Below the pieces are notes generated by a model. It was given only the letters and a program-made list of their open reading frames with translations. It did no database searches and was not told where the DNA came from. A stretch of 9,254 nt of DNA from Clostridia bacterium. GTDB taxonomy: Bacteria; Bacillota_A; Clostridia; Christensenellales; Aristaeellaceae. The stretch is taken from positions 1 to 9,254 of the forward strand of contig JAFXMP010000146.1 in the NCBI GenBank assembly GCA_017530275.1, in the 5' to 3' direction. Positions 1 through 9,254 of the stretch are shown in pieces. How positions within the stretch are numbered: the stretch's first letter is position 1; each line of letters opens with the position of its first letter. Both the position numbers and the translations under genes were made by a program.

Positions 1-20
1 GAATTGTGCCAAAATACCAA

Positions 21-60
21 TAAAAACAAAAGAAAAGCCCCCAAGATGGGGACTTCTCTT
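21..60 (-). terminator. Rho-independent terminator after tRNA-Leu
   Basis: Read on the minus strand, a stem of AGAAGTCCCC against GGGGGCTTTTCT with a short ATCTT loop is followed by a T-rich run (TTTTGTTTTTATT). It begins a few bases past the encoded CCA end of the tRNA, so it ends the tRNA transcript. Confidence 0.85.
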
Positions 61-65
61 GATTT

Positions 66-152
66 TGGTGCCGGTGGTGGGACTCGAACCCACACGGGGG
101 ATTAGCCCAACGGATTTTGAGTCCGTCACGTCTACCATTCCATCACACCGGC
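66..152 (-). tRNA. tRNA-Leu (anticodon CAA)
   Basis: The minus strand folds as a class II tRNA. The 7-bp acceptor stem pairs GCCGGTG with CACCGGC, followed by discriminator A and an encoded CCA (66-68). The anticodon stem pairs ACGGA with TCCGT around the loop CTCAAAA, giving anticodon CAA, which reads the leucine codon UUG. The T arm GTGGGTTCGAGTCCCAC is canonical. The long variable arm between the anticodon and T stems fits leucine. A promoter lies just upstream and a terminator just downstream, so it looks like a single-gene unit. Confidence 0.95.
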
Positions 153-155
153 ATG

Positions 156-181
156 TGAGGACAGTATAGACGATGTCCTCA
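156..181. repeat. 8-bp inverted repeat over the tRNA promoter
   Basis: TGAGGACA (156-163) and TGTCCTCA (174-181) are perfect inverted copies with a 10-base gap. The gap contains most of the -10 element of the tRNA promoter. The sequence has no T-tract on either side, so it is not a typical terminator for the upstream LUD gene. It may be an operator-like dyad or chance. Confidence 0.5.
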
Positions 182-191
182 GAAAATGCAA
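163..191 (-). promoter_or_regulatory. Promoter of tRNA-Leu
   Basis: On the minus strand, TTGCAT (186-191) and TATACT (163-168) are separated by exactly 17 bases. The expected start near 156 lies about 4 bases before the mature tRNA 5' end at 152. An 8-bp dyad overlaps the -10 element. Confidence 0.7.
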
Positions 192-203
192 GGATGAATT
201 CGT

Positions 204-833
204 TCAGAATCCCAGATTGTCATTCACAAGAATCACGTGGATCCGGTCCTTGTGTCTGGAAAAGCGGGTAATCAGGAACTGGCAGCAGATGGTGTCCGGC
301 GACTTGCAGTCCATGCAGGCGCCGGTCTTTGCGCAGGGGGTGTTCAGGCCGAAGCGCTGGGCGTTGATGGGCGCGGCCACGTTCCGGGCCCGCTTCATGG
401 CCCCGTCCACGTCGCTGCAGACTTTGTTCATGCCCACGATGAAGATCACTTTTTTCGGCCCCTGGGCGATCGCGGACACGCGGTTGGAGTTGCCGTCGAT
501 ATTGACCATGATCCCGTCTTCCGTGATGGCGTTGGCGCTGGAAAGGAACACGTCCGCGTCGTAGGCCAGCAGCATGGACGTCCGCCGATCCTCATAGGCG
601 TTCCGATCAATGAAGCTGTAGTTGCCGTTTTTCAGCGCGTCCACCAGCCCGATTTCATGGACGCTCATGCCCCCGCCCATGGTGACGGAGCTTTTTTCCG
701 GGATCAGCGACAGGGCCGTTTTGAGCGCCTCTTCCTTGGATGCCGCGTAGTACCCGGTCATGTTCCGGGACTGGAGCCCCTTGATGACTTTCCGCGCCAA
801 TAGCTCGTTCCGCTTGATAATGTTTTCGTTCAT
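204..833 (-). CDS. LUD-domain (DUF162, LutC-like) protein
   Basis: A 209-residue cytoplasmic protein of the LUD family, the fold found in lactate-utilisation LutB/LutC-type proteins; stand-alone members like this one have no settled function. Visible family features are MGGGMSVHEIG in the N-terminal third, the segment DADVFLSSANAITEDG, the segment around GNSNRVSAIAQGPKKVIFI, then RARNVAAPINAQRFG. A cysteine cluster follows (CAKTGACMDCKSPDTICC), and the C-terminus is IHVILVNDNLGF, which is typical of the stand-alone type. The ATG at 833 is chosen because AAAGGAG lies at the right distance before it; an in-frame start at 923 would overlap the upstream gene and adds an unlikely lysine-rich tail. 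A 76-base gap separates it from the kinase-like gene, with no clear promoter or terminator, so co-transcription is possible but a role in the peptide pathway is not indicated. Confidence 0.85.
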   Translation of the reverse strand: MNENIIKRNELLARKVIKGLQSRNMTGYYAASKEEALKTALSLIPEKSSVTMGGGMSVHEIGLVDALKNGNYSFIDRNAYEDRRTSMLLAYDADVFLSSANAITEDGIMVNIDGNSNRVSAIAQGPKKVIFIVGMNKVCSDVDGAMKRARNVAAPINAQRFGLNTPCAKTGACMDCKSPDTICCQFLITRFSRHKDRIHVILVNDNLGF

Positions 834-909
834 GGTATTGCTCCTTTGACGTTTTTTTTGCTGTTTCGCATGGAGGATCTTCGTATTTGATGAAAAGATG
901 CTTGATAGA

Positions 910-1677
910 TCACCGGCCTGCATGATCCCCGGTCAGGGCCTGATAGGAAACGGAAAATGCGTCGTCCGCCAAATTGTTGAAGCGGAACCTGTAAAAGCAT
1001 ACCTTATCGCGCAGGACGCTGAGCAGGGAGAGGGTCTTTCTCATTTGATCCGCGCCGGCAGGGCGGTAGGTTTGCTGAAGGAGATACAGAAATGCCTGGC
1101 TGAAGGAGATTTTTTCCATCACATTTTCTTCTCCGCGCTCCATCATCACGATGGCCTTCAAAGGCACCATGGCATTGGCGCCAAAGCCTTCCTTGCCGCA
1201 CCAGGGCGTGCCGCAGGCAATGGCCTGGGTATCCGTGATTTTGATCAGCGGCTTATCGCCGTTCACCACGAAAGCGTCGTCCACATATTTGAGCCACTTT
1301 TTGATATGCGTGGTTTTGCCGGTCCCGCTGACCGCGGTAAACATATAGGCGTTCCCGCCTGTAGCCACCACGGCGCCGTGCATCAGGAAGGTATCGTAGG
1401 CGAGCATTTTTTCGCTGATTTTCCGGTACACCGCCAGCGTTTCCAGGTACGCGTCGTTTTGCTGCGGTGAACGGCTTTTTTTCGCTTCCTGCCGCTCCGA
1501 TTCCAGGTCGCTTTCGGTAACGGAGATTTCCATATCGGGCGCAAGATCGGTAAGATATTCTTTGCAGAGGGAAAAAACCCGCGTGTGCAAGGCGTGGACC
1601 GCGACGGAATGCCCCGCCACGGCAATGCGGAAATCCCGCTCATTTTTCCCGTTCATCCGAAAAGTTTCTGCTTGCAT
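910..1677 (-). CDS. HPr kinase / PEPCK-like P-loop protein of a peptide-modification cluster
   Basis: A 255-residue soluble protein. The first ~90 residues are a variable domain. Then comes a P-loop core of the HPr-kinase/phosphoenolpyruvate-carboxykinase type: FLMHGAVVA (His100), Walker A SGTGKTT (117-123, Lys121), VVNGDKPLI with Asp141, the signature GTPWCGKE (156-163), and the segment PLKAIVMMERGEEN. This is not the true HPr kinase/phosphorylase of sugar control, which is longer and has an N-terminal DRTGG-like domain. Related HPrK-like enzymes phosphorylate lasso peptides (the paeninodin-type system), so phosphorylation of the cluster's peptide is a reasonable inference, not shown here. 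It starts 3 bases after the PqqD stop codon, so it is almost certainly co-transcribed with PqqD and probably translationally coupled; its own ribosome binding site is weak. Confidence 0.8.
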   Translation of the reverse strand: MQAETFRMNGKNERDFRIAVAGHSVAVHALHTRVFSLCKEYLTDLAPDMEISVTESDLESERQEAKKSRSPQQNDAYLETLAVYRKISEKMLAYDTFLMHGAVVATGGNAYMFTAVSGTGKTTHIKKWLKYVDDAFVVNGDKPLIKITDTQAIACGTPWCGKEGFGANAMVPLKAIVMMERGEENVMEKISFSQAFLYLLQQTYRPAGADQMRKTLSLLSVLRDKVCFYRFRFNNLADDAFSVSYQALTGDHAGR

Positions 1678-1680
1678 GCC

Positions 1681-1944
1681 TTATTCCACGATGCCTTCAG
1701 CCTTCAGCCTTTCCACGTACTCATGCACGTATCCGGCGATTTGCTCTTTTTCGCCGGCGTATTCCCGCAAAATCGCGTCCACGATTTTTTCTTCGTCGGT
1801 ATCCTGTGCCAGCAGCTTCAGGATCGCCGCGGCGGTTTCGTTCAGCTTCAGCACGCCGTGATACCGCTCCGAACCGTCCCCCACAGGAACGGCCACCAGT
1901 TCATCGTCCAGGTTCATGATTTCAAAATCGTACTTCGCTTTCAT
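1681..1944 (-). CDS. PqqD-family peptide-binding chaperone (RRE protein)
   Basis: An 87-residue protein matching the PqqD family, the winged-helix RiPP recognition element that binds leader peptides and presents them to radical SAM maturases. Visible hallmarks are an N-terminal beta region (DDELVAVPVGDGSERYHGV), the conserved LNETAAAILKLL turn and helix (about residues 33-44), and a C-terminal helical half ending VERLKAEGIVE. This length is normal for the family. The ATG at 1944 is preceded by GAGGTGAG at good spacing. It lies between the small Cys-rich protein and the kinase-like gene, so it likely serves the radical SAM enzyme encoded upstream. A stem-loop in the 135-base gap before it may lower its expression relative to the peptide. 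Confidence 0.9.
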   Translation of the reverse strand: MKAKYDFEIMNLDDELVAVPVGDGSERYHGVLKLNETAAAILKLLAQDTDEEKIVDAILREYAGEKEQIAGYVHEYVERLKAEGIVE

Positions 1945-1968
1945 CGTCTCACCTCATAAAGGGAAGAA

Positions 1969-2013
1969 GGGAAAGGCAAAACGCCCTTCCACAAGGATTG
2001 CGCTGCCTTTCCC
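1969..2013 (-). promoter_or_regulatory. Stem-loop between peptide gene and PqqD gene
   Basis: On the minus strand a perfect 10-bp stem, GGGAAAGGCA (2004-2013) with TGCCTTTCCC (1969-1978), encloses 25 bases and is followed by the pyrimidine-rich TTCTTCCCTTT. It could be a leaky terminator or a 3' mRNA-stabilising structure that raises peptide mRNA over the modification genes. The T-tract is interrupted, so a strong terminator is unlikely. Confidence 0.5.
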
Positions 2014-2079
2014 TTGCTTGTTTTGCAGGCTGTGCTCCTGCGTTTGCTGATACGATCATTCAGCTGTTTATCGCTGCTG

Positions 2080-2277
2080 TTATTTCCCGTCTACCCAGGG
2101 ACAAGACATCGGCACGCCTTTCACGTCGTTGTCTGTGGTGCCTTTTTCTTTATTCGCCTGGTACGCTTCATTGTACGGGCAGTCCGCATCGACGCAAATA
2201 CAGAACGGTGAAGCGGTCATAACGTCCGTTTGGTCAAATAGGACGATCTCCAGCTTGGGAATTTCAAAAACCTTCAT
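2080..2277 (-). CDS. Small four-cysteine protein, candidate RiPP precursor peptide
   Basis: A 65-residue acidic protein. The first ~23 residues (MKVFEIPKLEIVLFDQTDVM, then TAS) resemble the N-terminal signature of short uncharacterised clostridial proteins of the form PxxEhxxFxxxDVITxS (h, hydrophobic), which I recall from gene neighbourhoods like this one. The remainder carries Cys26, Cys28, Cys33 and Cys59 in PFCICVDADCPYNEAY and PMSCPWVDGK. It overlaps the radical SAM gene by 4 bases (ATGA), indicating translational coupling, and GGAGG lies about 10 bases upstream. Size, cysteines, and position between a SPASM maturase and PqqD make it the likely substrate, with residues 1-23 as leader. 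There is no double-glycine site, which is odd next to a C39 exporter. An alternative is a small accessory or immunity-type protein. Confidence 0.7.
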   Translation of the reverse strand: MKVFEIPKLEIVLFDQTDVMTASPFCICVDADCPYNEAYQANKEKGTTDNDVKGVPMSCPWVDGK

Positions 2278-3629
2278 TCAACATCAGCCTCCATTCCGTT
2301 TCCATACATGGACAAAATCTGTTCTTTCTGTTTTTCCAATGCGCTCACCCGAAATCTTTCAATGCATGGCAGACCGTTGTTCATGCAGTGACGCAGGTGA
2401 TAACACGCCGGATATATGGGGCACTCCGGGCAAATGTCCGAAGGTTCCATCGTTTCATTCCATCGATCCAGCTTCCCTGGATCGGTGACGCCTTCTTCAA
2501 GGCTGCCATAGCGATCATGGATACTCTCATGCTCGCATCGGCAAAAGCTGCCGTCCGGCTGAATCATCACCGCGTGGGGATTATCAGCCATGCATTGGCT
2601 GAACGACAGATAAGGATACTTTATATCGTCAAAATGCAGCTTCATTTCCTTCAGCCGCTCGGTGCAGTCAGCATTGAAATCCATCAGGGCCAGGATATCA
2701 TCGTAAGAATGATGGACCGGTTGGTAACCCTGGCCGTCAAAGAGCGTGTTCAGATAGACGGTCACATGGCTTTGGCCGGAATACCGTTCGCCCAGCTCTT
2801 CAATGAGCTTGCGGATTTCATCCTGATTGTAAACATCCGCATTCAGCCGGATCTTGACGTGGATCCCTTTGCCGCTGAGCAGATCAATGTTTCTCAGAAC
2901 GCGCTGATACGGATTGTCCTGCACGTCCGCATAGGCTTTTACCCGATTATAGGTATCTTCGGTTCCGTCCAGGGTGATCTGAACCCGCTGCAGCTTCCAT
3001 AATTCCCTGCTCCTTTCGACGATTTCCTCGTCGAAGAGGTAGCCGTTGCTGATCATGGCAGACGCAAACGGGATTTCGCGATCCATGAGCCCCTGAGAAA
3101 TCTGATCGATCCGCCGGAGGCCGACAAGCGGCTCGCCGCCAAACCAATTGATCGAAATACGCTTGCCCTGCCGGTGCTCGTCGATATAATCTATGAGCTT
3201 GCCTGCCGTTTCTTCCGTCATCTGAACGCGGGGATGATCGCTTTCGTAACAGTAAAAACAGTGCGCGTTGCAGAAGGTGGTAGGAAGAATCACGTAATGG
3301 GTGATGGCTTTCCCGGTGAAGCGGGACTTATAGATCCGCCGGAGCTGATGGACCGATTTGTACTCGTCAAAGCCTTCCCTCACCAGAAAATGCCCGGCCG
3401 CCAGCTGCTCCATCACAGGATCGTAAACGGCGGGGAGCTTTTCCAGCATCGCGGCTTCTTCCCGGCTCAGCTCCGCCAACTGGCCGGTCACGGCGTTGTG
3501 AAGCAGCACTTTGCCTTCATGATCCACCCGGAGCACATAACGCATGAGTCGATAGACATCCGTTTCTTTGATTCGTTGCTTCCCCCAGAGATTAACGATG
3601 TATTTCTTGGGTTCCACAATCGTCTTCAC
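2274..3629 (-). CDS. Radical SAM/SPASM peptide maturase
   Basis: A 451-residue cytoplasmic enzyme. Residues ~29-90 form an N-terminal module typical of peptide maturases (MRYVLRVDHEGKVLLHNAVTG). The radical SAM motif CNAHCFYC places Cys120, Cys124 and Cys127 on the SAM [4Fe-4S] cluster, followed by the GGEP motif in NWFGGEP. The C-terminal SPASM domain has Cys346, then CRC (363/365), then CPECPIYPACYHLRHC (400, 403, 409, 415) and Cys422, enough for two auxiliary clusters. Such enzymes install thioether, C-C or similar crosslinks in peptides; which one applies here is not readable from sequence. GTG at 3629 is chosen because AAGGAGGTG precedes it. An in-frame TTG at 3698 is excluded because the promoter would start transcription at about that point. 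Confidence 0.92.
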   Translation of the reverse strand: MKTIVEPKKYIVNLWGKQRIKETDVYRLMRYVLRVDHEGKVLLHNAVTGQLAELSREEAAMLEKLPAVYDPVMEQLAAGHFLVREGFDEYKSVHQLRRIYKSRFTGKAITHYVILPTTFCNAHCFYCYESDHPRVQMTEETAGKLIDYIDEHRQGKRISINWFGGEPLVGLRRIDQISQGLMDREIPFASAMISNGYLFDEEIVERSRELWKLQRVQITLDGTEDTYNRVKAYADVQDNPYQRVLRNIDLLSGKGIHVKIRLNADVYNQDEIRKLIEELGERYSGQSHVTVYLNTLFDGQGYQPVHHSYDDILALMDFNADCTERLKEMKLHFDDIKYPYLSFSQCMADNPHAVMIQPDGSFCRCEHESIHDRYGSLEEGVTDPGKLDRWNETMEPSDICPECPIYPACYHLRHCMNNGLPCIERFRVSALEKQKEQILSMYGNGMEADVE

Positions 3630-3649
3630 GAACCGACGCCACCTCCTTG
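3627..3649 (-). promoter_or_regulatory. Shine-Dalgarno site and GTG start of the maturase gene
   Basis: The minus strand reads AAGGAGGTG, then 10 bases, then GTG at 3629. It is one of the strongest ribosome binding sites in the window and decides the start. The next ATG (codon 29 from this GTG) has no such site. Confidence 0.75.
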
Positions 3650-3702
3650 CCGCCACAAAACCGTGAACCTCTCGTCCTGAATGGACATACTGAGTCAACG
3701 TA

Positions 3703-3732
3703 ATTATACAACTGGCATAAGGCTTTTGTCAA
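3703..3732 (-). promoter_or_regulatory. Sigma-A promoter of the maturation genes
   Basis: On the minus strand, TTGACA (3727-3732) and TATAAT (3703-3708) are both perfect consensus with an 18-base spacer. The predicted start near 3696 gives a leader of about 67 bases before the GTG start of the radical SAM gene. This separates control of the maturation genes from the exporter genes, although no terminator stops read-through from upstream. Confidence 0.8.
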
Positions 3733-3754
3733 TATCTTTTGCATATAATTGACA
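3727..3754. promoter_or_regulatory. Inverted repeat overlapping the -35 element (candidate operator)
   Basis: TGTCAAT (3727-3733) and ATTGACA (3748-3754) are perfect 7-bp inverted copies with a 14-base gap. Their centres are 21 bp apart, two helical turns, as expected for a dimeric regulator bound on one DNA face. One arm includes the complete -35 hexamer of the maturase promoter. No regulator gene is in the window. Confidence 0.5.
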
Positions 3755-3759
3755 GTTTA

Positions 3760-5946
3760 TCAGTTTTCGTTTCCCAGCCTCTGGCGTTCCACCAGGTCGG
3801 CGAAAATGCCGTTGCGGGCGATGAGCTCTTCATACGTGCCGTCCTCGGCGATTTTGCCGCCGTCGATTACCAGGATGCGGTCGCAATGACGGATGGTAGA
3901 CAGGCGATGGGCGATGACGATGCGGGTGCATTTCATATGGTCCAGGGCGTCGGAAACCTTCTTCTGCGTAATATTATCCAGCGCCGAGGTGGCTTCGTCG
4001 AAAATCAGGATCCTGGGCTTGGGGGCAATGGCCCGGGCGATCATCAGCCGCTGCCGCTGCCCGCCGGAAATGGTGCCGCCGCCCTCCTGCAGCAGGGTGT
4101 TCATGCCCATGGGCATATCCCGGATATCGTCGGCGATCCCTGCGATTTCCGCCGCTTCCCAGGCGTCCTGGAGCTTTAGCGTCGGGGCGGAAATCACGAT
4201 GTTTTCAAATATGCTGCCTGTGAACAGATGCCCGTCCTGCATGACCACGCCGATCTGCCGCCGGAGCGAACGCACGTCCAGCTGCTGCAGATCCTTTTTA
4301 TCGTAGTTGATCACGCCGCGGGCAGGCTTCTCAAACCCCAGCAGCAGCCTTACCAGCGTTGATTTTCCGCAGCCGCTTTTGCCCACGATGGCCACATACT
4401 GCCGGGCGGGAATGGTGAGGCTGAAATCATCGAACAGCGGCTTGCTTTCGGGGTCGTAGCCGAAGGTCAAGTGGGAAACCTCGATATTGCCGGAAAGCCG
4501 GGCGACGGTTTCCTTGCCGGAGGAAGATTCCGGCTTGGAAGCAAGAAGGGGCTTTATCAGGTTGATAACGGGCTTGATGGAAGCGGCGGAAAGCGCCACC
4601 GACGTCAGCGACGAAAACGCGGCGGAAATGTAAGCGTAAGCCGTGTTGAACGCAAAGTAATCCGCAACGCGCACCTGATTTTTGACGGCGATGAAATACA
4701 TGAAGGCAGTGCCGATAAGGGTGACGGCGGTGGTGATCACCTCGGACAGGACGATGATTTTCGGGGGGTTAAAGGTAAGCTCGGCGCCTTTGGAGTACGC
4801 CTGAGACCATTTGGCGAACGCACGGTTTTCCGACCCGCTCAGGCGGATTTTTTGGATCCCCGCGATCAGGGAATACACCAGGCCGCGTTCCTTGGCGGTG
4901 AGCACCATTTTTTCGGCGTCGATGCGCATCTGCACCATCGCGGACAAGAGGCTTACCCCAAGCGTCAGCAATGTAACGATCAGGCTGGGCCAAACCAGGC
5001 TGGGGGCGAACGCAAAGATCTGCGTCAGATACACCAGGGAAAAAACGCCTGTGACCGCGGTGGAAAACAGCGAATCCACGATGGTTTCGCACAGGGTATC
5101 CATATAGCTGATATACTGATTCAGCTCGCCTGCCGAATACTCCTTAAAAAACGACGCCGGCATGGACAGAATGCGCATCATGGCAGCCGCGCTGACATTC
5201 ACATTCAGTTTTTCCCGGATCCTGGAAAGAAGCATCGTGTGGATGATCGATAAAAGGGTCCTGCCGACAGTGGCAAACAGCAGGAAAGACATGACGGCAT
5301 ACAGCAGCTGCATGCTGCCGCTTTGCACCACCGTTTCCATCAGGATCTGATTCAGCTTGGGCATCAGCATGCCCACCAGCGTGACGGCCAGGGCAGACGC
5401 GCCGAAGCTTGCCGCGTCGCGCGCGGTGAGGCAGCTCATCATGTAGCGCAGCAGATCCTTGAGCTTCAGCTCCCGCATGGGCAAAGGACGGTAAAAGCAC
5501 AGCGCTTCATGACTGATTTTCTTTTCTTCTTTGGCGTTGATCCGTATCCGGATGCCCGTTCGGGGGTCCGTATATTCATAGCCCCCCATTTCGGAAGGCA
5601 GGATCGCAATGATCGTTCCTTCTTCGCGAAGGGAGGTGATCATCGGGCCCATGGCGTCGGCATGCCAGCCTTTGTTCAGAATGACTTCCCGGTACAGGAT
5701 GCCGGTCGGAGAAAGCAGATAATCCAGCCGGTCCCGAAGGCCCCGGATATGGGCGGGGACCTCCCGCTCCTTCAGCCCAAAAAACTTCAGCAGCCCGGAA
5801 ATGGCGTCGCTTACGTCCTCCTGATCCTGCAGGCTGCTGCGGATCTTCCGACCGGTAATGGAACGGGCAATCCCTTCAAAAGAGTCGCTCAGCAGTTCGC
5901 GCTCGTGTTTTTTTCGGAATTCTATTTGCTCGTCAAACCAGCCCAT
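3760..5946 (-). CDS. NHLM-type ABC exporter, ATP-binding/permease protein (second subunit)
   Basis: A 728-residue membrane exporter resembling the second ABC protein of NHLM (nitrile-hydratase-leader microcin) systems. Residues 1-~165 are a soluble extension without a C39 Cys-His pair. The transmembrane domain spans ~170-450, with hydrophobic stretches such as LLYAVMSFLLFATVG and LIVTLLTLGVSLLSAMV. The nucleotide-binding domain has Walker A GKSGCGKST (~519), signature ISGGQRQ (~627), Walker B ILIFDEAT (~643) and switch IAHR; all key residues are intact. I recall longer versions (around 900 residues or more) in other phyla, so this is a compact form. The ATG at 5946 follows AAGAGGG. It starts 33 bases after the C39 exporter gene and probably forms a heterodimer with it, lacking the peptidase itself. 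Confidence 0.9.
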   Translation of the reverse strand: MGWFDEQIEFRKKHERELLSDSFEGIARSITGRKIRSSLQDQEDVSDAISGLLKFFGLKEREVPAHIRGLRDRLDYLLSPTGILYREVILNKGWHADAMGPMITSLREEGTIIAILPSEMGGYEYTDPRTGIRIRINAKEEKKISHEALCFYRPLPMRELKLKDLLRYMMSCLTARDAASFGASALAVTLVGMLMPKLNQILMETVVQSGSMQLLYAVMSFLLFATVGRTLLSIIHTMLLSRIREKLNVNVSAAAMMRILSMPASFFKEYSAGELNQYISYMDTLCETIVDSLFSTAVTGVFSLVYLTQIFAFAPSLVWPSLIVTLLTLGVSLLSAMVQMRIDAEKMVLTAKERGLVYSLIAGIQKIRLSGSENRAFAKWSQAYSKGAELTFNPPKIIVLSEVITTAVTLIGTAFMYFIAVKNQVRVADYFAFNTAYAYISAAFSSLTSVALSAASIKPVINLIKPLLASKPESSSGKETVARLSGNIEVSHLTFGYDPESKPLFDDFSLTIPARQYVAIVGKSGCGKSTLVRLLLGFEKPARGVINYDKKDLQQLDVRSLRRQIGVVMQDGHLFTGSIFENIVISAPTLKLQDAWEAAEIAGIADDIRDMPMGMNTLLQEGGGTISGGQRQRLMIARAIAPKPRILIFDEATSALDNITQKKVSDALDHMKCTRIVIAHRLSTIRHCDRILVIDGGKIAEDGTYEELIARNGIFADLVERQRLGNEN

Positions 5947-5979
5947 CGTTTTCCCTCTTCTCTTTCTGCGTTGGAAGCG

Positions 5980-8157
5980 CTACTCATTCGTCACCAATTC
6001 CGCGTACGCGCCGCCTTTGGCATACAGTTCTTCATGCGTGCCGCGCTCTACGATCCTGCCCTTGTCCATCACGATGATCTCATCGCAGCCGCGGATGGTG
6101 GAAAGGCGATGGGCGATGATGATGCAGGTGATGCCCCGGGCGTTGATGGAACGGATCACCTCGTGCTCCGTTCTTGCGTCCAGGGCGGAGGTGGCTTCGT
6201 CCATGATGCAGATGGTGGGATCCTGGGACAGAGCGCGGGCGATCTCCAGCCGCTGGCGCTGGCCGCCGGACAAATCGCGTCCGCCATCCAGGAGCTTATG
6301 CGAAAAGCCGCCGTCGCGGGTGACGATATCATCGTAAATACCGGCGTCACGCGCCGCCAGCGTCACCTCAAAATCCTCGATGGAATCATCCCACATTTTT
6401 ATATTCTGCGCAATCGTGTCCTCAAACAGCGTAATGTCCTGGTCGATGACGCTGACGGAGCCCGTGAATACATTGCGGTCGATTTCCTCCAGCGGAATGC
6501 CGTCAAAGGTGATCGTGCCGCTCCAGGGATGATTGAGCCCGGAAATCAGCTTGGCCAGGGTGGATTTTCCGCACCCCGTCCGGCCCACAAAAGCGATTTT
6601 CTGGCCGGGCTTCACCGTCATGGAAAAATCAGCGATCAGCGGTTTCCCCAGCCGGGAATACCCGAACGTGACGTTTTTAAGTTCGATCTGGCCGGAAAGC
6701 TTCCGGTATTCCTCTTTTTTCTCCCGCGGGGAGAAAGAGGCGTCTTCCGGATAGCTCATCACGTCGTCGACGCGTTCCATCTGCGTGATCATTTCCTGCA
6801 TGGATTGGCCGGCGCTGATCAAGTCGGATGCAGGCTGCATAAAGGAAGCCAGGAAGCCCTGGAACGCCATGACCATACCGATGGTAAACCTGTTTTCTAT
6901 CACCAGTATCACGCCAAGCCCCAGGACAGCCAGGTTCGCCACGGCCGTGATGGCCATGGGCAGCGAACCCAGGAACAGGTTCAGCCGGGTATACTTTACG
7001 GATTGCGTGTTCACGCTGGCCTGATAGCCGGCCCAGCGGCCGAAGAAGCCGTTTTCCGCGCCGCTGGATTTAATGGTTTCGATCATGCTGATCCCCGACA
7101 TGGTGGCGGAGGAGAGATTGGCGGCGTCCCGCTGCTGGACGCGGGTGATGTTCACCCGCTTTGCCGTAACGATGGAGGACACCGCCAGGTTCAGCAGGAT
7201 CGCGCCGATGCCGATGAGCGAAAGAAGCACGCTGTAATGGACCATGACGATGAGATAGAATACCATCATCATCGCCTGGATCGCCAACGGCGCAAAGGTA
7301 TCCACCAGCGTTGAGGCAATGGAAGCGTTGGTCGTTTGGCGATCCGCGATATCAGCCGACAGGCGCTGGTTGAAAAACTGCATCGGAAGCCGCAGCACTT
7401 TCCACAGGTAGGAGGCGCTGCCGTAAGCGGACATTTTGCCCTCGATCCGCAGGGAGTAAACGGCGGAAATCCAGCTGACCACCACGCTCAGCACGATCAA
7501 AAGCGAGAACAGGAGCAGGAAGGGCGTGAGCCATTCGGGGTTTTCGCCGGTCAGCAGACGATCCAGGAACGTACGGGAGAACGCCGGCTGAATGAGGCCG
7601 ATCAGCGAAGCAATCGTGGTGGTGAGCACCACGAACACGACGGCGGCGCCGGTTCCTTTCAGCTGTTCTTTTGCATAGGAGAAAACGGACTTGGGTTTCC
7701 CGGAGGGCTCGAAGGAATCTCCGGGCTCAAAACAAATGCAGACGCCCGTAAATTCCTTGTCAAACTCTTCCCATTCCACGATCACCCGTCCGCGGGCGGG
7801 ATCGTTGATCACGGCGCGCCTGCCCTTAAACCCGCAGAGCACCACAAAATGGTTAAAGCCCCAATGAATGATGCAGGGAAAGGGGCCTTCCTCCATCAGC
7901 GTTTCCGGCTCGATCCGCCAGGCGCTTGCCTTCATGCCGTAGCTCCGGGCGGCCAGCATGATATTTTTCGCGTTGGCGCCGTTCATGGATACGCCGCAGT
8001 CCACGCGGGCCTGCTCCAGCGGGATCCACTTGCGATAGTAATGCAGGATCATGGTCAGCGACGCGGCTCCGCACTCCAGCGACTCCATCTGCATGACCAT
8101 CGGGACGCGCACGGAGCCTTTGGTCACCGGTTTTGGCACTTTTGCCTGCTTGAACAT
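5980..8157 (-). CDS. NHLM-type C39 peptidase-containing ABC exporter
   Basis: A 725-residue bifunctional exporter that removes a leader peptide and pumps the product across the membrane. The N-terminal C39 cysteine protease domain (1-~140) has Cys29 in MQMESLECGAASL, His103 in HWGFNHFVVL and Asp119 in NDPARGR, so the catalytic triad is complete; this exact context matches the NHLM peptidase/ATPase family. The membrane domain spans ~165-440. The ATPase domain has Walker A GRTGCGKST (~523), signature LSGGQRQ (~627), Walker B CIMDEAT (~648) and IIAHR. The ATG at 8157 follows AGGGGGTGG and lies 12 bases after the adaptor gene, so the three export genes form one operon. Peptidases of this family normally cut after GG or GA, a site not seen in the small protein encoded downstream. 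Confidence 0.94.
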   Translation of the reverse strand: MFKQAKVPKPVTKGSVRVPMVMQMESLECGAASLTMILHYYRKWIPLEQARVDCGVSMNGANAKNIMLAARSYGMKASAWRIEPETLMEEGPFPCIIHWGFNHFVVLCGFKGRRAVINDPARGRVIVEWEEFDKEFTGVCICFEPGDSFEPSGKPKSVFSYAKEQLKGTGAAVVFVVLTTTIASLIGLIQPAFSRTFLDRLLTGENPEWLTPFLLLFSLLIVLSVVVSWISAVYSLRIEGKMSAYGSASYLWKVLRLPMQFFNQRLSADIADRQTTNASIASTLVDTFAPLAIQAMMMVFYLIVMVHYSVLLSLIGIGAILLNLAVSSIVTAKRVNITRVQQRDAANLSSATMSGISMIETIKSSGAENGFFGRWAGYQASVNTQSVKYTRLNLFLGSLPMAITAVANLAVLGLGVILVIENRFTIGMVMAFQGFLASFMQPASDLISAGQSMQEMITQMERVDDVMSYPEDASFSPREKKEEYRKLSGQIELKNVTFGYSRLGKPLIADFSMTVKPGQKIAFVGRTGCGKSTLAKLISGLNHPWSGTITFDGIPLEEIDRNVFTGSVSVIDQDITLFEDTIAQNIKMWDDSIEDFEVTLAARDAGIYDDIVTRDGGFSHKLLDGGRDLSGGQRQRLEIARALSQDPTICIMDEATSALDARTEHEVIRSINARGITCIIIAHRLSTIRGCDEIIVMDKGRIVERGTHEELYAKGGAYAELVTNE

Positions 8158-8169
8158 ATGCCCACCCCC

Positions 8170-8661
8170 TCACTGCAGCAGAAGCGAGATGGGCTTTAGA
8201 TCTTCCGTGACCACTTCGCCGGTATAGACGCCTTCGGGAAGATCGATGATCACCGGCACTTCCACCACCAGATCGCCCATGCGCAGATCCCCGCTGAGCA
8301 GCACGCGGGGCGGCGTTTCCTCAGAAACGATGTTTACGTTGTATTCATCGGTTATCTTCAGCGGATAATCGGCGCCTTCCACATGGACGATGCCTTTGTC
8401 CAGCACCTTGTCGGCGATGTCATAGCTCACGTAGCATATGCTTTTTTCCGGGCTGACGGATACGGCACATTTCGCGGTGGTGCGGATGTGGCCGAAAATC
8501 CCCCATAAGATGCCGCCCGCAAGCAGGGCGATGACCGCGGCCATCACGAGCCAGATCCCGGGGGAGGTGACGCGGAGATAATCGTTCAGCGACTCGGGCG
8601 AATCCACGGCCTCCAGGCTCTTTTCACGGAACAGCTGTACTTTCGGTTTTTCCTCAGACAT
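8170..8661 (-). CDS. Short HlyD/NHLM-like membrane adaptor
   Basis: A 163-residue bitopic membrane protein. The N-terminus (VQLFREKSLEAVDSPESLND, YLRVTSP) matches the start of NHLM secretion proteins, followed by one membrane helix at ~36-57 (WLVMAAVIALLAGGILWGIF) and a beta-rich outside domain. Family members that I know are about 400 residues, with a long coiled-coil hairpin between beta segments. Here the chain passes from the post-membrane GHIRTTAKCAVSV segment almost directly to the closing beta region (GVYTGEVVTEDLKPISLL), with no coiled coil. It is intact, with start at 8661, a GAGAGGAG site 7-8 bases upstream, and normal coding character, so it is a mini-adaptor and not debris. In a single-membrane cell it may only scaffold the exporter pair. 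Confidence 0.8.
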   Translation of the reverse strand: MSEEKPKVQLFREKSLEAVDSPESLNDYLRVTSPGIWLVMAAVIALLAGGILWGIFGHIRTTAKCAVSVSPEKSICYVSYDIADKVLDKGIVHVEGADYPLKITDEYNVNIVSEETPPRVLLSGDLRMGDLVVEVPVIIDLPEGVYTGEVVTEDLKPISLLLQ

Positions 8662-9007
8662 ATCAAAGCGCTCCTCTCATTTGTTGCGAAAATACCGTAT
8701 GCTCTGTTTTGAACGGACAGGGGAGAAGAAAAGCCCGTTTCGCTGCCTGCCTTGCCCTGTTTTCCCGCGGCGCGCGTCCAAAGCATGTTCTTTCCCGATG
8801 CGTCCGGATGATGCGAATGCCTTTCTGAATCATCGTTTTTTGGGCCGATACGTCCGTCCGCATTCGACGAAGGGAGCGGAGGACGTCTCTTCGATGCCCA
8901 AATTATATGCGTCCATCATTTTAACACATTTTTGTCCCAGATACCACCCTTTTCAAATTAATATGAAAAAATATATCGCAAATTTACTTTTTTTGGTTAA
9001 GAATAAT

Positions 9008-9036
9008 TTGACATCCCAAATTATATCGCGTATAAT
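9008..9036 (+). promoter_or_regulatory. Perfect-consensus plus-strand promoter
   Basis: TTGACA (9008-9013), a 17-base spacer, then TATAAT (9031-9036): an exact sigma-A consensus, divergent from the export operon. The predicted start is about 9043, only ~25 bases before a strong hairpin. Confidence 0.8.
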
Positions 9037-9042
9037 CACGAC

Positions 9043-9110
9043 TTTGACAGTCAGAAGAGGCAAAAAGTCCCTGAAACGCTGGAAAATCAAGCGTCTCAGG
9101 GGCTTTATTT
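9043..9110 (+). ncRNA. Candidate short RNA of about 68 bases
   Basis: A transcript starting from the consensus plus-strand promoter would run into the terminator-like hairpin after about 68 bases. It contains no reading frame of note and does not match an RNA family I recognise. The alternative is a 5' leader with an attenuator for a rightward gene. Confidence 0.3.
9065..9110. terminator. Near-palindromic hairpin, terminator-like on both strands
   Basis: On the plus strand, AAAGTCCCTGAAACGCT pairs with AGCGTCTCAGGGGCTTT around the loop GGAAAATCA, with one A-C mismatch and one G-U pair, and is followed by ATTT. On the minus strand the same stem is followed by TTTTT inside ACTTTTTGCC. It may terminate a short plus-strand RNA, attenuate a rightward gene, or end a leftward gene outside the window. 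Confidence 0.7.
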
Positions 9111-9122
9111 GGAAGAAAGAAA

Positions 9123-9254
9123 GTGCACAATGTTGAGGAAGAGGAGCAGGATTTCAAAATTTTTTTCATCGCCTTATCAGTTGTAATCTGGGCATCTATC
9201 GAAAGGGAAAACGCAGTCTGCAAGGCGGACATGAGAGGGGACGAAGAAAAGGCA
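9123..9254 (+). CDS. Possible start of a rightward gene, cut by the window edge
   Basis: From GTG at 9123 a frame stays open for 44 codons to the end of the window. It begins VHNVEEEEQDFKIFF and continues with the hydrophobic segment FFIALSVVIWASI, which could be a membrane helix after an acidic start. GGAAG lies about 8 bases upstream, and a consensus promoter and attenuator-like hairpin precede it. I do not recognise the protein, and a frame this short is often chance. Confidence 0.25.
   Translation, partial: MHNVEEEEQDFKIFFIALSVVIWASIERENAVCKADMRGDEEKA

Follow-up and report, generated by a model that had tools for sequence, protein, structure and literature searches.

Introduction

Do an exporter of the NHLM type and a neighbouring set of radical SAM, PqqD and HPr-kinase-like (HPrK-like) maturation genes make and export one and the same modified peptide? 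This question is raised by a stretch of DNA of 9,254 nucleotides from a Clostridia bacterium of the Aristaeellaceae (contig JAFXMP010000146.1, positions 1 to 9,254), which we call the window. Clustering of radical SAM genes with peptidase-transporters of the NHLP/Nif11 type is already published for anaerobes, whose NHLP/Nif11 clusters contain both kinds of protein (PMC4289311), and in a selection of nine RiPP clusters from Bacteroidales most have a C39 transporter and some have radical SAM genes (PMC10352776). In rumen isolates, ranthipeptides are the most frequent call (PMC13289728). These statements, like those on the papers cited below, refer to excerpts of the papers. Among titles and opening parts of abstracts, with few subscription journals covered, we recognised no work on RiPPs that combine radical SAM, PqqD and HPrK proteins, and the excerpts of the cited papers describe no case in which radical SAM, PqqD and HPrK-like proteins occur with this exporter.

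Organization of the locus

The window had originally been read as a seven-gene array on one strand, and a check of the open reading frames bore this out: all seven frames are intact and lie on the minus strand. They are transcribed in the order mini-adaptor, C39-ABC exporter (ABC1), second ABC subunit (ABC2), radical SAM maturase, precursor, PqqD and HPrK-like protein, and the features are as follows.

8170..8661, minus strand: mini-adaptor, 163 aa, truncated HlyD-type (partial TIGR03794 match)
5980..8157, minus strand: ABC1, C39 peptidase/ABC exporter of the NHLM_micro_ABC1 type (TIGR03796 and Peptidase_C39)
3760..5946, minus strand: ABC2, second ABC exporter subunit of the NHLM_micro_ABC2 type (TIGR03797)
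3703..3732, minus strand: sigma-70-type promoter, TTGACA-N18-TATAAT (12/12 consensus matches)
2274..3629 (open frame to 3698), minus strand: SPASM radical SAM maturase, 451 aa (PF04055)
2080..2277, minus strand: very probable RiPP precursor, 65 aa, four Cys (leader family, P0107 fusion)
2209..2277, minus strand: proposed leader, residues 1-23, ending in TAS (boundary predicted from alignments)
2083..2208, minus strand: proposed core, residues 24-65, four Cys (predicted from alignments)
1681..1944, minus strand: PqqD-type leader-binding protein (RRE), 87 aa (PF05402)
910..1677, minus strand: HPr-kinase/PEPCK-fold protein, 255 aa, P-loop SGTGKTTH (fold model)

A separate promoter between the exporter and the maturation genes had also been predicted; it is present and strong, reading from 3732 to 3703 on the minus strand. 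When we scanned from 400 nt upstream to 120 nt downstream of each maturase ORF start, sites with 11 or 12 of 12 matches were found for 17 of 110 maturase ORFs, a count that includes duplicates and has no chance control. One of these, with 11/12 matches, lies upstream of the maturase of G211, a genome in which the exporter also adjoins. The maturation genes are probably a transcription unit of their own.

The nearest genome, G001, is 99.69% identical to the window over positions 201-9036. The similarity ends at window position 201. In G001 (L130:8986-10131) an NTP_transf_5 gene (PF14907, 136 bits) and then a gene for a PqqD-domain protein come after the LUD gene; the window has a tRNA-Leu instead, and a tRNA was the sole match in an Rfam scan of the window.

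Conservation of the maturation genes

In order to compare the maturation genes across relatives, we used 94 maturase anchors, which are the 96 related loci without two duplicates (L130, of the window, and L146, of L037). These anchors are nearest relatives rather than a random sample: an alignment-based scan, which keeps the best 80 matches, gave at least 78 loci. They stem mostly from metagenome-assembled Clostridia and Bacteroidales, many of them labelled gut or rumen.

A PqqD gene was found within 5 kb on the same strand at 71 of the 94 anchors and an HPrK-like gene at 55, the two together at 50; a precursor lies within 3 kb of the maturase at 65. The gene-family profiles were built iteratively from the same loci, and the sole check on them is the gene density per kb within and beyond 5 kb, which was 0.108 versus 0.0055 for PqqD, 0.082 versus 0.009 for the HPrK-like gene and 0.116 versus 0.004 for the precursor, a drop of 9 to 31 times. 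When the count was restricted to the 47 anchors flanked by 5 kb of sequence on either side, PqqD was near in 38, the precursor in 34 and the HPrK-like gene in 30. A comparison of contig sizes points in the same direction. For 30 of 105 close maturase clusters, the longest contig has the same size as that of one of the 120 HPrK-like matches listed, while the jittered control gave a mean of 1.3 and a maximum of 6; on contigs of 4 kb or more the agreement was 28 of 57. G001 itself has a second, diverged cluster on another contig (L131), with HPrK-like gene, maturase, precursor and PqqD.

The array in the window is not a chance arrangement, since dozens of other loci have the maturation genes grouped as well. 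On the other side, 39 of the 94 anchors, some on short contigs, have no HPrK-like gene within 5 kb, and thus the HPrK-like protein does not seem essential in every relative. The core of the original prediction was a RiPP cluster with the small protein as precursor and with a SPASM radical SAM enzyme and PqqD beside an HPrK/PEPCK-fold protein. This clustering and the conserved leader described below uphold it. That the genes form a RiPP cluster is well supported; clusters of this broad kind are uncharacterised and occur mainly in bacteria of the animal gut.

The precursor peptide

With an iterated profile seeded by the 65-aa protein we identified 92 related ORFs across the 96 loci, including a few duplicates, and a search of a large protein collection gave 30 matches only. 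The relatives share a widespread leader of the pattern kxFExPxxExVxhxxxDhIxTS, starting approximately M-k-x-F/Y-E-x-P, and differ in their Cys-rich cores. In the 72 of 88 peptides that could be parsed, the mean Cys fraction was 0.011 in the leader and 0.132 in the core, and at least two Cys are present in 62 of these 72 cores. The window peptide would divide into a 23-residue leader and a 42-residue core that holds all four Cys. It has no match in NCBIfam at E values up to 1, hence no NHLP or Nif11 leader match, and the proposed leader end, TAS, is without a double glycine. In P0107, a database homologue of the maturase, the frame reads on into a complete precursor with leader and Cys-rich core, which hints that the peptide is the substrate of the maturase. 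The P0107 fusion could alternatively represent a lost stop codon. The 65-aa Cys-rich protein is very probably a RiPP precursor, as judged from these comparisons of sequence.

PqqD with a SPASM radical SAM enzyme is also the architecture of PQQ biosynthesis, and the small protein could in this light be the precursor of an intracellular redox cofactor of the PQQ or mycofactocin kind rather than of a secreted peptide. The shared pairing is what favours this reading, but the cores of the relatives are highly variable, two precursors occur at some loci, and 25 of the 94 anchors have a same-strand ABC gene no more than 8 kb away. We consider a cofactor precursor very unlikely, and keep to a modified peptide.

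The radical SAM maturase

The maturase most likely starts at the GTG at 3629, which gives the 451 aa also seen in the database cluster P0001, and not at the TTG at 3698; its stop codon overlaps the precursor start in the ATGA at 2274-2277. The radical SAM domain (PF04055) scores 61.2 bits. Among 33 maturase homologues the CX3CX2C motif (C120, C124 and C127) is invariant, and so are seven further Cys of the C-terminal, auxiliary-cluster region (C346, C365, C400, C403, C409, C415 and C422). The structure model (pLDDT 90.8) matches CteB over model residues 29-445 and TigE over residues 21-443, at 15-16% identity. For a possible N-terminal RRE, the start of these alignments at model residues 29 and 21 says little, and the profile of the maturase N-terminus did not match that of stand-alone PqqD (probability 0.3%).

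The window maturase thus resembles the SPASM maturases CteB, SkfB and PapB (TIGR04463) in its fold and in the Cys-rich precursor beside it, but differs from them in its low identity to CteB and TigE and in scores below the curated cut-offs. It reaches no NCBIfam cut-off among the best 25 matches, of which the top one is TIGR04463 (144 bits against 525), and it scores 81.9 bits against the PapB family, whose cut-off is 340. A single-protein scan of genome contigs with the maturase found no relative. Its top PHROGs match is a radical SAM family. Matches to viperin in PADLOC reflect general radical SAM resemblance, and we rejected this identity.

PqqD and the HPrK-like protein

The PqqD-type protein matches PF05402 with 54.3 bits (cut-off 23.4). 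The HPrK-like protein has a confident model of the PEPCK/HPr-kinase fold. Its P-loop Lys and Thr and its NGD-motif Asp do not vary among relatives; it has no HPr kinase match in Pfam at E values up to 1. Most of the 120 HPrK-like matches listed carry the precomputed Pfam label PF27840. By their family names, the SynChlorMet and HPr-rel-A systems of NCBIfam are similar in having an HPrK-like protein in one set with a radical SAM protein (ScmE) or PqqD-family members, but the window proteins score very low there, at 14.3 bits against a cut-off of 125 for ScmC, 14.1 against 200 for HprK_rel_A, 19.7 against 35 for PqqD_rel_X and 34.2 against 400 for ScmE.

The nearest described tailoring is that of lasso peptides. 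There, a homologue of HPr kinase places a phosphate on the Ser at the C-terminus of a lasso precursor; in pseudomycoidin this phosphate receives a hexose from a nucleotidyltransferase (PMC8498205). HPr kinase, PqqD and nucleotidyltransferase genes recur in rumen lasso clusters (PMC7533575). The window is like the clusters of paeninodin and pseudomycoidin in its HPrK-like protein, PqqD-like protein and small precursor, and some of its relatives have NTP_transf_5 genes, which might suggest a lasso cluster. However, among the nine window ORFs scanned there is no transglutaminase-like leader peptidase (B2) and no asparagine-synthetase-like cyclase (C), and a radical SAM maturase, the presumed core enzyme, is present instead, which leaves the lasso reading with hardly any credibility.

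The HPrK-like fold might also serve a role other than phosphorylation of the peptide, for example activating it for a later step. The whole chain is structurally similar to PEP carboxykinases as well as to HPrK/P, and genes grouped with NTP_transf_5 recur near related clusters (22 genes in 19 loci, two of the genes scanned; one adjoins the G001 cluster), and the further glycosylation of the phosphate in pseudomycoidin (PMC8498205) fits a later step of this kind. On the other hand, the P-loop and NGD residues are invariant, and the known RiPP precedent is a kinase. A role of the fold apart from peptide phosphorylation appears to us rather less probable than a kinase, although it deserves consideration.

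The exporter proteins

ABC1 passes the NHLM profile TIGR03796 (889.7 bits, cut-off 853.3), and its Peptidase_C39 domain (PF03412, 112 bits) lies well over the Pfam cut-off. ABC2 is slightly below the cut-off of TIGR03797 (690.1 against 709.4 bits) and aligned over positions 27-685 of 686. The mini-adaptor reaches 35.2 bits against TIGR03794, whose cut-off is 156.2, and covers only positions 3-46 of 421; relatives of it at E values of 1e-4 or lower were found in 130 of 308 genomes of the family. C29, H103 and D119 of the C39 domain, which we take to be the catalytic residues of the peptidase, are invariant in 39 exporter relatives, and C29 is conserved there by selection, because these relatives were chosen by their ECG motif.

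A C39-ABC gene, a second ABC gene and an HlyD-type gene adjoin each other as in NHLM/NHLP export (TIGR03796, TIGR03797, TIGR03794). The window differs in having a 163-aa mini-adaptor instead of a full HlyD protein, a precursor with no NHLP or Nif11 leader match, and a maturation set made up of radical SAM, PqqD and HPrK-like proteins.

Adjacency of exporter and maturation genes

The original prediction took the exporter and the maturation genes to work together because they lie next to each other. When we looked for a C39 domain within 8 kb of the maturase, it was present at 4 of the 94 anchors, namely the window, G211, L082 and L084; of the 47 anchors flanked by 5 kb of sequence on either side, 2 have one within 5 kb. 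The profile was built from the 39 ECG-selected exporters of the clade defined below and may thus overlook distant C39 domains. The HlyD-like adaptors of L082 (279 aa) and of L084 (278 aa, locus labelled Prevotellaceae) are longer. Since an ABC gene of any kind is near 25 anchors and a C39 domain near 4, most nearby ABC genes are without C39. As far as adjacency is concerned, then, homologous maturation genes occur mostly without the exporter, and this part of the prediction does not hold generally.

The exporter side gave a similar picture. In 40 loci of the adaptor clade the three-gene cassette mostly stands alone, with varied neighbours. There are exceptions, among them G289, where a PqqD gene, another type of radical SAM gene and an HPrK-like gene lie directly upstream of the cassette, and G069, where a PqqD-like gene (scoring below the Pfam cut-off) and two precursor-like ORFs are divergent from the adaptor; in G195, G186 and G290, HPrK-like genes lie about 5 kb or less from the cassette. 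Within the 43 genomes of the clade the maturase adjoins the exporter only in G001, which is near-identical to the window, and in G211.

Co-occurrence of the exporter clade with the maturation genes

We then compared gene content across the 308 genomes of the family, of which 43 carry the exporter clade, defined by an adaptor of 47% identity or more. This threshold was set after the hits had been seen, and therefore the p-values given here are descriptive; incomplete metagenome assemblies add noise, and the genus sizes are approximate. The HPrK-like gene was found in 30 of 43 clade genomes versus 29 of 265 others (p 1.3e-15), and in a test stratified by genus (seven genera) the number was 26 versus 15.6 expected, which was reached in 0 of 200,000 draws. 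The exporter clade was present in 14 of 20 maturase genomes versus 29 of 288 others (p 2.9e-9), with 12 versus 6.0 expected after stratification by six genera (p 1.2e-4). Genomes with an HPrK-like gene and without this maturase had the clade exporter in 17 of 40 cases versus 26 of 268 (p 1.3e-6).

Depletion of the HPrK-like gene in genomes that have only other NHLM exporters is partly built in, clade genomes being excluded by construction. A fairer comparison is that outside the clade, where the gene was found in 12 of 101 genomes with other NHLM exporters versus 17 of 164 with none, which speaks against explaining the pairing by assembly completeness alone. Seven genomes of four genera (G064, G069, G094, G063, G195, G286 and G177) carry maturase and clade exporter apart from each other on one contig, at distances of approximately 26-53 kb, and in the other clade-positive maturase genomes besides G001 and G211 they are on different contigs. 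The main new observation is that, at the level of genomes, one NHLM exporter clade specifically goes together with HPrK-containing clusters. Because the co-occurrence is strong, the maturation cluster is likely linked in function to the exporter clade, often in trans. The original claim of co-function is thus partly supported, by co-occurrence across genomes, while the adjacency on which it was based is not general.

The exporter might instead be an independent cassette for other peptides, of the Nif11/NHLP or double-glycine kind, that came to lie beside the maturation genes by accident. The solitary cassettes with their varied neighbours, the rarity of maturase adjacency in the clade and the separate promoter between the two units all agree with this, and small peptides with a GG motif are present in some related clusters. 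However, this clade, and not other NHLM exporters, strongly co-occurs with the HPrK-like gene and the maturase. Moreover, when 22 of the 43 clade genomes were tested, a Nif11 leader match was found in just 5 (3 of them over the cut-off) and a weak NHLP match in 1, and in G001 the Nif11 peptides are encoded on contig C29, some 8 kb away from the other exporter of that genome, the sole such case seen among the 22. An accidental neighbour is in our judgement unlikely, and a functional link between the two units remains the preferred reading.

Proposed pathway

Based on these results, we suggest, with somewhat better than even confidence, that a single modified peptide is made and exported by two transcription units lying side by side. 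The unit with its own promoter, comprising radical SAM maturase, precursor, PqqD and HPrK-like protein, would make the peptide. PqqD would bind the 23-residue leader and bring the Cys-rich core of 42 residues to the SPASM maturase. This enzyme would crosslink the core, most likely through Cys thioethers, and the PEPCK/HPrK-fold protein would then phosphorylate a hydroxyl side chain. The other unit, comprising the mini-adaptor and two ABC subunits, one with the C39 peptidase, would remove the leader and export the product, and in related genomes the same exporter clade may act in trans for similar clusters elsewhere. The identity of the precursor, the partnership of maturase, PqqD and HPrK-like protein, the folds and the co-occurrence with the exporter clade are supported by comparison; thioether chemistry, phosphorylation with its target, and C39 cleavage we infer. 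The end of the window core counts against the pathway, as it is not Ser, the residue modified in paeninodin. Across the wider family, C39 processing and phosphorylation are each unlikely to be a fixed requirement, since a nearby C39 domain and HPrK-like gene are often missing.

Leader removal could also be carried out in trans by a protease of the S24/S26 type, so that a non-C39 ABC protein or the NHLM pair merely moves the product. A gene with weak similarity to signal peptidases and S24/S26 proteases is found in 35 of the 94 loci, many times beside HPrK-like and PqqD genes; most of the products have 140-170 aa, with one of 196 aa and one cut at 83. G211 has both such a gene (L132:6992-7465) and the C39 exporter, a nearby C39 exporter is absent in most relatives, and the leader ends without GG. 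Against this, no such gene was grouped within the window, the matches of the three representatives scanned are below curated cut-offs, and the C39 domain of the window is well over its own. We regard a protease of this type as an improbable substitute, and cleavage by C39 as the better candidate for the window.

More widely, and only tentatively, we propose a large RiPP class of gut anaerobes with an ExPxxExV...DxIxTS leader, which would be crosslinked by radical SAM enzymes and phosphorylated by PEPCK-fold kinases, with one specialised NHLM exporter clade recruited as its genome-wide processing and export station, acting in trans for several clusters, and a different NHLM exporter of the same genome used by Nif11 peptides. 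If this is true, genomes could be mined, by way of the defined leader, for a RiPP class that is crosslinked by radical SAM enzymes and phosphorylated. It would also mean that C39 exporters can serve scattered clusters, and that a rule of taking the next-door exporter would miss such partners.

Additional features of the related loci

Tandem pairs of different precursors lie behind one maturase in L032, L035, L134, L135 and L037, which suggests two-peptide products, and at several of these loci one precursor has a CYC motif in its core. In L031 (870-1733), a 287-aa protein consists of a precursor leader and Cys-rich core followed by a hedgehog/intein-type domain, as judged by eye. Second small peptides with a double-glycine motif such as VVGG, mostly of 73-82 aa, are found near maturase, precursor and PqqD genes in L133, L136, L137, L138, L034, L036, L049, L131, L039, L135 and L032. 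Finally, positions 9008-9112 on the plus strand of the window contain a 12/12 sigma-70-type promoter followed by an inverted repeat with a T-rich tail, seen by eye and missing from the terminator-scan list, an arrangement that would suit a small RNA or a leader whose gene lies outside the window.
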